Shown in pieces: positions 6,410 to 8,917 of a stretch of DNA of 59,723 bases. The translations under genes were made by a program, and so were the position numbers. The stretch comes from an uncultured Verrucomicrobiota bacterium (GTDB lineage Bacteria; Verrucomicrobiota; Verrucomicrobiia; Limisphaerales; UBA9464), in NCBI GenBank assembly GCA_903939515.1, contig CAJAHH010000020.1, forward strand, positions 1 to 59,723, read 5' to 3'. The first letter of the stretch is position 1; every line of letters begins with the position of its first letter. The notes under the pieces were generated by a model. That model had not been told where the DNA came from. It did no database searches and saw only the letters and a program-made list of their open reading frames with translations.

Positions 6410-7480
6410 TCAGCCACGACCGACGGAACCTGAGGAGTTTTCACCCCGTAACTCATTGAGCTGCAACCTAAGGTCTTCAAGGTTGCCCACTCGGATCGCA
6501 CCGATCGCGTCGATATCGGACTGGTAGGCGCAGCTGGCCCGCCCTCCGACAAGAATGCGCGTGGCTCCGGGGAGCAGTCGTCGCAGGAGCTTCAGTTCCT
6601 GAGGGAGAAGCGGATCATCCGTCGGGTGCACGATACTTAGGCCGACGGCCCTCGCACCCTGGTGAATGGCTACACTGACAATTTCCTCGGCGGGCAGGCA
6701 GGCGCCACCATAAACCACCCGCCACCCCATGCCGGTCGACGCGGCAGCAACGATGATGGCCCCCAGTTCGTGGAGCTGACCCGAGGGAGTCGCCACCACC
6801 AGAACGGGCGCCCGCGGGTGCAGAGCAATCGGCCGGGCAATGTTGCCCAGAAATGTTCTCAGGACCGCTGTAGCCACATGTTCGTGAGCCACCTTGACCT
6901 GCCCCGTCAACCATCCCTCACCGATCCGCTCGACCAAGGGGACGATCAACTCGCTCAGCAAACGAATCTGCCCCATCGCCACCGAGGCTCGCTCCAACAA
7001 GCCTTCGAGAGCCACGGCATCCATGCGCAGGACAGCCTCGAAGGCTCCCTCCAAAAATCCAAACGACCCCTCGATGGAGGGCCCAGCCACGGCAAATGGA
7101 AAGCGGCTGATGTTTGATACCCTCAGAGAGCCCGCTTCTTCCACTTCGCCAGTGTCTGTTGAGGCTCCCGCCGAGGCCTCCGGAGGCACCCCTCGAGGAC
7201 GACCGACCGACGAAGCTCCTCGTTCTGAATTCGACAGCAAAGATCGCAGGGATTCGAGGGGAATGGAGGCGATGGTTCCGATAGAAAACCCGGCTTCAGT
7301 GGCTTGGCGCAGCAAGGTTAGGCGCCCAATGTCCGCGGCGGAATACAGGCGCTGTTTTCCCTCCGAACGGGTTGGTTGGACCGTCTGATACCGCTTTTCC
7401 CACGCACGAATAACATGGGGACTCAACCCCGTTTGCCGCGCAACGGTTTTGATCGAATGCTTTACCAAGACCTCACTCAT
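6410..7480 (-). CDS. MerR-family regulator with cobalamin-binding domain (CarH/LitR-like)
   Basis: A 356-residue regulator. Residues 8-75 form a MerR winged helix (IKTVARQTGLSPHVIRAWEKRY). Residues 80-135 are a low-complexity linker, about 140-215 a helical bundle, and 225-340 a B12-binding Rossmann domain. Trp190 and Glu200-His201 reproduce the W-x9-EH signature of adenosylcobalamin photoreceptors of the CarH/LitR type. His237, in GQLHELG, is placed like the lower axial ligand of Thermus CarH (47 residues after the Trp, against 46). Family members repress carotenoid or light-response genes in the dark and release DNA when light breaks the Co-C bond. The first residue of the usual DxHxxG motif is Gln here, as in other non-catalytic binders. 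It is divergent from a sigma factor gene 252 bp away, which may be its target. Confidence 0.88.
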   Translation of the reverse strand: MSEVLVKHSIKTVARQTGLSPHVIRAWEKRYQTVQPTRSEGKQRLYSAADIGRLTLLRQATEAGFSIGTIASIPLESLRSLLSNSERGASSVGRPRGVPPEASAGASTDTGEVEEAGSLRVSNISRFPFAVAGPSIEGSFGFLEGAFEAVLRMDAVALEGLLERASVAMGQIRLLSELIVPLVERIGEGWLTGQVKVAHEHVATAVLRTFLGNIARPIALHPRAPVLVVATPSGQLHELGAIIVAAASTGMGWRVVYGGACLPAEEIVSVAIHQGARAVGLSIVHPTDDPLLPQELKLLRRLLPGATRILVGGRASCAYQSDIDAIGAIRVGNLEDLRLQLNELRGENSSGSVGRG

Positions 7481-7732
7481 CTGCGCACACGGTTAGCCCA
7501 TAGTTCCATACAATCAAGGACATGAGGCTGCAAGCCGAAGACTTTATTTTGAAGAGCGTCAAATCGGAACAAAAGCTCACCAAAACCTCCTGACGGGTGA
7601 ATTTTGTTAACTCTTACTTAGACAACTGTGCATCAAACTGTTGACACCTTTCGTTCTATCCCTCATTCTCACTCTGCGGGTCGGTGAACCCTCAATTTTC
7701 TCGAAACAGTCACTGATCCCACTCCTCCCTCG
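7481..7732. promoter_or_regulatory. Divergent control region of the CarH-like and sigma genes
   Basis: A 252-bp shared upstream region. A TTGACA hexamer lies at 7641-7646 in the right orientation for the sigma gene, but no good -10 follows at 16-18 bp. AACTGT occurs at 7624-7629 and 7636-7641 with a related AACTCT at 7609-7614, a loosely spaced direct-repeat pattern overlapping the putative -35. CarH-type repressors can bind direct repeats over a promoter -35, so this is a candidate operator. The repeats are short and may be chance. Confidence 0.3.
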
Positions 7733-8917
7733 ATGAAGCCGTCCAAAAAAAATCTGAAGAAGGCTGCAGTTCCATCTAAGGCCTCCGCCACTGGGAAACG
7801 TTTGTCGCCCACTGCCACACTCTCTTCAGTCTCAAAACCTTCGTCGGTGAGTTCTAAGAAACCGGCGAAGCTCAAAACCCTGAGGTCTAAAACCCAGATT
7901 AAACCGCTGAAGGTGCTTTCTGCTTTGGCCACCCGGGCCACGAAAGCTCCTTCCCGTCCGAGAAAAGCTAGGGCGATCATGGTCGCCTTATCTGAAAGAC
8001 CCGGCCTCCAAATGATCGATGGCATCCCGGTGTTGCAGAGTCCGCCTGAGCCCGTTCGCGAAATCTACGAATCGAAGAGCGCACTCAATTTGTACATGCG
8101 TGAGGCGGTTGAGGTTCCGCTGCTCACGGTGGCCGAGGAAAACGCCCTCGCCGCACGCATCAAACAAGGGGATTCGGTCGCCCGAGAGCACATGATCCGA
8201 GCCAACCTCCGGTTGGTGGTGAAAATCGCCAAGGACTATGATGGTTTGGGACTGCCTCTTTTGGACCTGATCAACGAAGGCAATATAGGGCTCATGAAGG
8301 GCGTGGAGCGCTTCGATCCCTCCAAAGGTGGCAAGCTCTCCACCTACAGCTCCTGGTGGATTAAGCAATCCATCAAGAGGGCCCTGGCCAACCAGTCCAA
8401 GACCATCCGACTGCCAGTCCATTTAGTGGACAAGATTTCCAAGATGCGCCGTGTGGCCATGGAGCTGCAGGAACTCTTCGGCCGCGAGGCGACCGACGAA
8501 GAGATCGCTGACGAGATGGACGCCCCGCTGCGGAAAGTTACTCTCTGGCGTCGAGCCTCTTTACGGACCAGTTCGCTCGACGAATCCTTAGGCGACGAAG
8601 ATTCCAGCAAGCTGGGTGACGTGGTGGCAGACGAATCCTGCCAGACTCCCTACGAAAACCTGGAAAGCCGCACCACTCATAGCCTGCTGCAAAGCACCCT
8701 TCATATCCTAGACTTCCGCGAGATGACCATTTTGCGCGAACGGTTTGCCCTCGACGGGGGTAAGGAGAAAACCCTCGACGAAATCGGGCAAAAGTTCGGT
8801 GTCACCCGCGAGCGCATTCGTCAGCTGCAGAACATCGCCTTGGCCAAGCTCCGTAAGAAAATCGAGGCATTCGAGGCGGTTCGAACCCCCATCGAGGCCG
8901 GCGACGGTGTGAGCTGA
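7733..8917 (+). CDS. RNA polymerase sigma-70 family factor (RpoD/group 2 type)
   Basis: A 394-residue sigma factor. Residues 1 to about 110 are a Lys/Ser/Ala-rich extension without the classical region 1.1 look. Region 1.2 follows (LNLYMREAVEVPLL), then region 2 with NLRLVVKIAKDY, GNIGLMKGVERFDPSKG (about 183-199) and the -10-binding STYSSWWIKQSIKRAL. Region 3 (IRLPVHLVDKISKM) and region 4 with the -35 helix VTRERIRQLQNIALAKL (about 357-373) follow. All four conserved regions are present, so it should recognise ordinary -35/-10 promoters and is not an ECF factor. Size and the short N-terminal region suggest a group 2 (RpoS-like) role or a lineage-specific primary sigma. It is divergent from a CarH/LitR-like repressor, which suggests but does not show light or B12 control. 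Confidence 0.9.
   Translation: MKPSKKNLKKAAVPSKASATGKRLSPTATLSSVSKPSSVSSKKPAKLKTLRSKTQIKPLKVLSALATRATKAPSRPRKARAIMVALSERPGLQMIDGIPVLQSPPEPVREIYESKSALNLYMREAVEVPLLTVAEENALAARIKQGDSVAREHMIRANLRLVVKIAKDYDGLGLPLLDLINEGNIGLMKGVERFDPSKGGKLSTYSSWWIKQSIKRALANQSKTIRLPVHLVDKISKMRRVAMELQELFGREATDEEIADEMDAPLRKVTLWRRASLRTSSLDESLGDEDSSKLGDVVADESCQTPYENLESRTTHSLLQSTLHILDFREMTILRERFALDGGKEKTLDEIGQKFGVTRERIRQLQNIALAKLRKKIEAFEAVRTPIEAGDGVS

Follow-up and report, generated by a model that had tools for sequence, protein, structure and literature searches.

The window, a contig of 59,723 nucleotides from an uncultured Verrucomicrobiota bacterium (GenBank assembly GCA_903939515.1, contig CAJAHH010000020.1), includes a carH-like gene and a sigma-70 factor gene that are transcribed divergently, with 252 bp between their start codons. 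The predicted products were designated P0001 and P0002, and the features of the locus are listed in Table 1. A sequence-only reading of this DNA had described both ORFs, their divergence, a full-length group 1/2 sigma factor as the neighbour, and the residues Trp190, Glu200-His201 and His237 in the MerR protein. The two ORFs are present as described, the sigma factor matches regions 1.2, 2, 3 and 4 and is group 2-like, and phmmer aligns the named residues of P0001 with the corresponding residues of Thermus CarH.

Table 1. Features of the carH/sigma-70 locus, with positions in the window.
Feature	Position	Strand	Basis
carH-like gene (P0001), 356 aa, MerR HTH + B12-binding_2 (four-helix cap) + B12-binding (Rossmann)	6410..7480	-	Pfam, NCBIfam, PDB, Foldseek
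Rossmann B12-binding domain, residues 227-320, with QxHxxG (His237), x41, SxV, x27, GG	6521..6802	-	Pfam; spacing counted on sequence
Four-helix B12 cap domain, residues 144-211, with Trp190 and Glu200-His201	6848..7051	-	Pfam and alignment
MerR DNA-binding domain, residues 9-71	7268..7456	-	Pfam
Putative carH promoter -35 region, TCCTTGATT on the carH strand	7512..7520	-	Invariant core
Predicted CarH operator: TAGACA 7619-7624, degenerate GCATCA 7630-7635, TTGACA 7641-7646, in 11 bp steps	7619..7646	+	
Group 2-like sigma-70 factor gene (P0002), 394 aa, CarH-linked sigma	7733..8917	+	Pfam regions, sequence, sigma tree

The order of the Pfam domains in P0001 is that of class I of the CarH/LitR proteins, and the recognition helix (R25-A-W-E-K-R-Y31) is close to RxWERRY, the recognition-helix motif of CarH and CarA (PMC9304148). 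The best solved relative is Thermus CarH (phmmer against PDB, 3whp E 2e-25 and 5c8d E 2.6e-25), and full-length TtCarH was also ranked first by Foldseek, with 23-32% identity in the Thermus CarH rows. The AlphaFold2 model used there was built from 9 sequences, has a mean pLDDT of 63.7 and is of modest confidence, and it served for fold ranking only, not for pocket geometry. Because P0001 scores 120.1 bits with the NCBIfam CarH equivalog NF052513, under the cut-off of 400, it is a divergent relative and was not classed with the CarH proteins that this model describes as equivalogs.

The pocket residues of Thermus CarH are W131, E141, H142 and H177 (PMC11796333), and CarH and CarA are divided by Wx9EH together with D/ExHx2G/Px41SxT/Vx22-27GG (PMC9304148). 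Wx9EH is intact in P0001 (W190-x9-E200-H201), and the second motif is matched by H237, G240, S282, V284 and G312-G313 at spacings of x41 and x27, with Gln235 at the D/E position. In a 51-row alignment, the position before the axial His is Gln in 47 rows and Glu in 4. The SignatureFinder elements GxxW, EH, GxxH and GxxxP are all found in P0001 (G187-W190, E200-H201, G234-H237 and G259-P263). Trp and the axial His are each conserved in 50 of the 51 rows and EH in 49, the exceptions being G254, which is without a CarH-type B12 domain, and G006, which has ER for EH.

P0002 has sigma-70 regions 1.2, 2, 3 and 4. Region 1.1 of the group 1 (housekeeping) factors gave no Pfam match, and P0002 is therefore group 2-like. 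The presence of regions 1.2 and 3 excludes the ECF type, which has regions 2 and 4 only, as in LitS and CarQ. The best NCBIfam scores are with the RpoS and RpoD models, below their cut-offs, and a further sigma match in the same genome (C96, 45% identity, 823-codon open frame) is likely RpoD. An N-terminal extension of approximately 110 residues (window 7733-8070) is Lys/Ser-rich and poorly conserved in sequence.

In Thermus and Bacillus, the sites bound by CarH are 11-bp repeats of the form nnnnTnnACAn in tandem, one Thermus repeat includes the -35 element, and degenerate CarH repeats are tolerated elsewhere (PMC9304148). The predicted operator at 7619-7646 has this tandem TnnACA form, with two full repeats on either side of a degenerate middle repeat and spacers of ACTGT and AACTG, and its last repeat (7641-7646) doubles as a -35-like element ahead of the sigma gene. 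A search of 7470-7740 for sigma-70 promoter-like sites gave none. Among 13 aligned intergenic regions, no stretch is more conserved than 7619-7646 except for a CAAG block close to carH; this block is the CTTG core of the putative carH -35 region read on the + strand and is invariant in all 13. An exact 22-bp TnnACA pair stands at the operator position in 10 of the 13 (the window and 9 of 12 relatives); the three deviating relatives are one base off (L011), have TTGACG (L014) or are degenerate (L016).

Across the class, TnnACA pairs at 11 or 22 bp occur in 35 of 52 carH-upstream regions, compared with a shuffle mean of 0.84 and a maximum of 4 in 200 sets. On the strand divergent from carH there are 32 same-strand pairs at a spacing of 11 and 17 at a spacing of 22, with no more than 3 at any of the remaining spacings between 6 and 17. 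Minor peaks (5-9 pairs) lie at 19-21 and 30-31, where one repeat pair is followed by another. On the carH strand, phased pairs are seen in only 5 of the 52 regions. In this count L039 (contig edge) and L015 (no N-terminus) were left out, and L074 (G254) was kept. Since the 52 include near-identical relatives, a separate count was made without the 12 close relatives, giving 25 of 40 regions (shuffle mean 0.45, maximum 3). The 15 regions of this window-plus-distant set that lack phased repeats include 4 of the 15 paired loci (L023, L029, L040 and L078). L074 encodes a MerR protein matching by its HTH alone, yet it has phased repeats upstream and a sigma-70 gene approximately 2.3 kb away on the same strand.

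In the 4.7-Mb genome, exact TAGACA-N16-TTGACA occurs once, at 7619-7646, and the sole other site with one mismatch or fewer is inside an ORF call. There is no genome-wide excess of this pattern at up to 2 mismatches, with 63 matches against 101 for the reversed control. The 22-bp pattern alone is not significant within the window (2 matches, with as many in 13 of 100 shuffles), and an overlapping match to it lies on the opposite strand at 7605-7632. A three-repeat pattern had no match in the genome of the window; over 17 genomes it gave 8 matches against 1 for the control, and two of the eight are carH/sigma intergenic regions.

The divergent pair is present in all 12 related loci in which both genes are visible, a 13th locus (L015) beginning inside carH. 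Matches to a carH model were found in 39 of 286 genomes of the class, one of them (G254) via the HTH only, and 15 of these 39 genomes have a sigma-70 gene transcribed divergently from carH. These belong to six families: eight to f1 (the family of the window, which is included), two each to f3 and f8, and one each to f12, f13 and f21. With the pair in 12 of 12 visible related loci and 15 of 39 class genomes, the arrangement, as judged by this gene order, is not due to chance. The remaining 24 genomes have no visible divergent pair; a sigma-70 gene is nearby in another orientation in G022 and on the same strand in G254, the contig ends at carH in G229, and in the others tblastn detected no sigma-70 gene near carH in stretches of 2-12 kb. 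Sigma positions were taken from tblastn, the greedy ORF calls being partly wrong in high-GC neighbours (L077, L080 and L082).

In a sigma tree of 54 rows, all 19 paired sigmas fall in one 22-row branch (support 97/96), together with both sigmas of G244 and the C102 sigma from the genome of the window, which is on a long unstable branch. Another branch (91/84) is formed by 25 unpaired paralogues, and seven rows are in neither. The unpaired rows were picked by score among the matches listed, G088 was dropped as a short reading, and a long-branch warning applies to the RpoD-like row, C102, G022 and G101. On this tree the pair label must change at least 2-3 times. Within f1, the paired-lineage sigma is found in 8 of 8 genomes with a paired carH and in 0 of 3 without (p 0.006, with only the best match of each of the three placed); G116 and G181 have no carH match, and G211 has a carH of another lineage. 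The CarH tree, made from the 51 alignment rows minus G254 (no CarH-type B12 domain) and seven near-copies, requires at least 2 changes of the pair label, but its backbone was not resolved and its use for dating the pairing was dropped. G148, from the same genus, carries two carH copies (L075 and L079), one sigma-paired and one of another lineage.

Other carH neighbours in the class include pigment-type genes. A crtI-family gene over the cut-off is directly divergent from carH in G006, and an FAD/amine-oxidase-type gene of similar size and place, crtI-like by Pfam only, is found in G162, G209 and G232. In G101, G234 and G056 carH is divergent from a sigma-70 gene that is itself followed by crtI, and the 500 bp upstream of this crtI hold no phased repeat pair. 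G128 has carH divergent from a gene for a 224-aa ECF-type sigma (L066:6872-7543) with a crtI-like (Pfam Amino_oxidase) gene near, an arrangement that resembles LitR/LitS.

Carotenoid-binding fasciclin proteins exist, and a fasciclin-domain gene is directly divergent from carH in G085. Such genes lie behind phased repeats in G148, G162, G201 and G101 (4 of 9 loci examined, of 14 matches), and are a recurrent second neighbour of carH or predicted target of CarH in the class. Fasciclin-domain genes with CarH-type repeats upstream, or divergent from carH, are those of L205:4806-5294, L206:5060-5614, L068:6232-7509, L213 and L215. In family f42, carH of L064 and L071 is divergent from a gene for a Gate/nucleoside-recognition membrane protein, and no phased repeats were found in six f42 upstream regions (L045, L071, L072, L073, L088 and L089).

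At a threshold of E 1e-40, crtI, the one carotenoid gene covered by the search in f1, was not found in any of the 11 f1 genomes (93-96% complete), eight of which have the pair, and was found in 7 of 8 further genomes from the order, all except G196. The genome of the window has only two weak N-terminal crtI matches below the cut-off, no fasciclin match and three photolyase-family matches. Two photolyase/cryptochrome-family matches are approximately 1.6 kb apart on the same strand (G000:C77:44422-47015). Photolyase promoters were considered as second CarH targets and rejected, as the 13 kb around the C77 pair has no TnnACA pair at 11 or 22 bp and the sole phased pair in 10 kb at the C136 photolyase gene is inside an ORF call (L192:5656, - strand). 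With no fasciclin gene, and no convincing operator-like site before the photolyases, only the sigma gene was detected as a direct target in this genome. Light-protection genes could follow at second hand, via the sigma factor.

The bacterium probably senses light by means of vitamin B12 and thereby turns on a full-length sigma factor. The protein family, the ligand-pocket residues, the operator, the synteny and the sigma lineage are shown by computation, whereas AdoCbl binding, a response to light, the direction of control and a regulon are inferred. The sequence-only reading had suggested that light or B12 gates a non-ECF sigma factor, and had named a pair not conserved in related genomes as one finding that would speak against this; the pair recurs in six families, which, with the conserved CarH-type operator, favours such control. 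Our main reading, to which we give a probability of roughly 70%, is that P0001 is an AdoCbl-dependent, light-sensitive repressor of the CarH/LitR class that holds a group 2-like sigma gene repressed in the dark and releases it, and a light-response regulon with it, in the light. AdoCbl-bound P0001 would oligomerise in the dark and occupy the three 11-bp-phased repeats, so that the -35-like TTGACA is masked and the sigma gene is not transcribed. Green or blue light would cleave the Co-C bond and dissociate the oligomer, and the sigma factor then produced would steer RNA polymerase to the light-response regulon. Such a cascade would be LitR/LitS-like, with a full-length group 2-like sigma rather than an ECF sigma as its second tier.

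The light chemistry of P0001 would differ from that of Thermus. Leu191 directly follows Trp190, at the position of CarH His132, a point absent from the sequence-only reading, so that the His after Trp that gives the bis-His light state in many, not all, class I members is missing. None of the 51 rows has His at this position; the commonest residue is Arg, with Leu, Met or Ile in the window and its 11 close relatives. The bis-His light state of TtCarH is formed by His132, and the H132A protein was mostly tetrameric in the light in one study, an earlier report having found disassembly (PMC10442372). CtMerR, with Arg at this position, passes from tetramer to monomer in the light (PMC11796333). 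Because its His132 equivalent is missing, the Thermus bis-His chemistry cannot be assumed for P0001, where light sensing is plausible but necessarily of another kind. AdoCbl supply also appears plausible, since the genome encodes a cob(I)alamin adenosyltransferase and has two other B12-binding matches that exceed the cut-off.

A chiefly AdoCbl-sensing (B12-status) role for P0001, in which AdoCbl-loaded P0001 represses the sigma gene at high AdoCbl levels and any effect of light is incidental, a pocket without His132 being no longer able to make the oligomer dissociate, would suit the missing His, the behaviour of TtCarH H132A, the adenosyltransferase and other B12-binding matches, and the lack of crtI over the cut-off. 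It is nevertheless unlikely, given that CtMerR still monomerises in the light, that the W/E/H pocket residues are kept, that carH of relatives adjoins crtI or fasciclin genes, and that three photolyase-family matches suggest exposure to light.

In the 51-row alignment, Leu236 and Cys261 of P0001 occupy the positions of the TtCarH residues that we take to be R176 and D201 and to form the dimer salt bridge. This would be compatible with a CarA-like repressor that acts independently of B12 and is released by an interacting protein or some other signal, as CarA itself keeps the B12 motif and works without B12 (PMC9304148). CarA has, however, lost the Trp of Wx9EH, which 50 of 51 rows retain (all but G254, where this type of domain is missing), and we regard a CarA-like P0001 as distinctly improbable. 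That the two genes are mere neighbours, the sigma being a constitutive group 2 factor, agrees with the 24 of 39 carH-matching genomes without a divergent pair (G229 at a contig edge) and with the two paired-branch sigmas in G244, a genome without a carH match, but is the least credible explanation given the predicted operator before the sigma gene, the synteny in six families, the joint absence in f1 and the single sigma branch.

If repression by P0001 relieved by light is correct, the targets of B12-based light sensing, so far pigment genes under its direct control or an ECF sigma, come to include a full-length group 2-like sigma. The circuit is then also retained where crtI, a key gene for the pigments that sensors of this kind usually control, was not found. 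The question of further uses of CarH light sensing then becomes testable, with the predicted operator and the sigma regulon as defined targets. More tentatively, and at less than even odds, green light may be the master switch of a carotenoid-independent global regulon, acting through one detectable direct target, the dedicated group 2-like sigma, in the crtI-lacking and presumably unpigmented family f1; the sigma lineage would have been recruited inside a carH-carotenoid locus and have outlived the pigment genes. The type of circuit is already known from LitR/LitS and from CarH operators. Among the papers listed in a search of the open-access literature there was no description of a full-length group 2-like sigma as a CarH target, of its conserved lineage or of its presence without crtI, and no paper combining 'CarH' and 'Verrucomicrobia'.

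Among known systems, Myxococcales CarH shares the Wx9EH/B12 motif with P0001, and its operators are plastic, combining full with degenerate 11-bp repeats; it controls carotenoid genes directly, and the parts of the source consulted mention no sigma-70 target (PMC9304148), whereas the predicted target here is a sigma gene. Chloracidobacterium thermophilum CtMerR (8jbs/8jbt), the tetramer that becomes monomeric in the light, is likewise a MerR-B12 protein without His132 (PMC11796333), with Arg at this position where P0001 has Leu. Thermus thermophilus CarH has the same domain order, the equivalents of W131, E141, H142 and H177, and an operator of 11-bp TnnACA repeats including the -35 element (PMC9304148), like the one predicted here. 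P0001 differs from it in the missing His132 equivalent, the Gln before the axial His and the sigma gene as predicted target. In Streptomyces LitR/LitS, a B12 photoreceptor adjoins the gene for a sigma factor that relays its signal, LitS being an ECF sigma. The window likewise has a B12-photoreceptor-type gene beside a sigma gene, but the sigma factor has regions 1.2-4 and no crtI match in the genome passes the cut-off. As a LitR/LitS-like arrangement is also found within the class, in G128, it is the type of sigma factor that differs in the window and not the principle.
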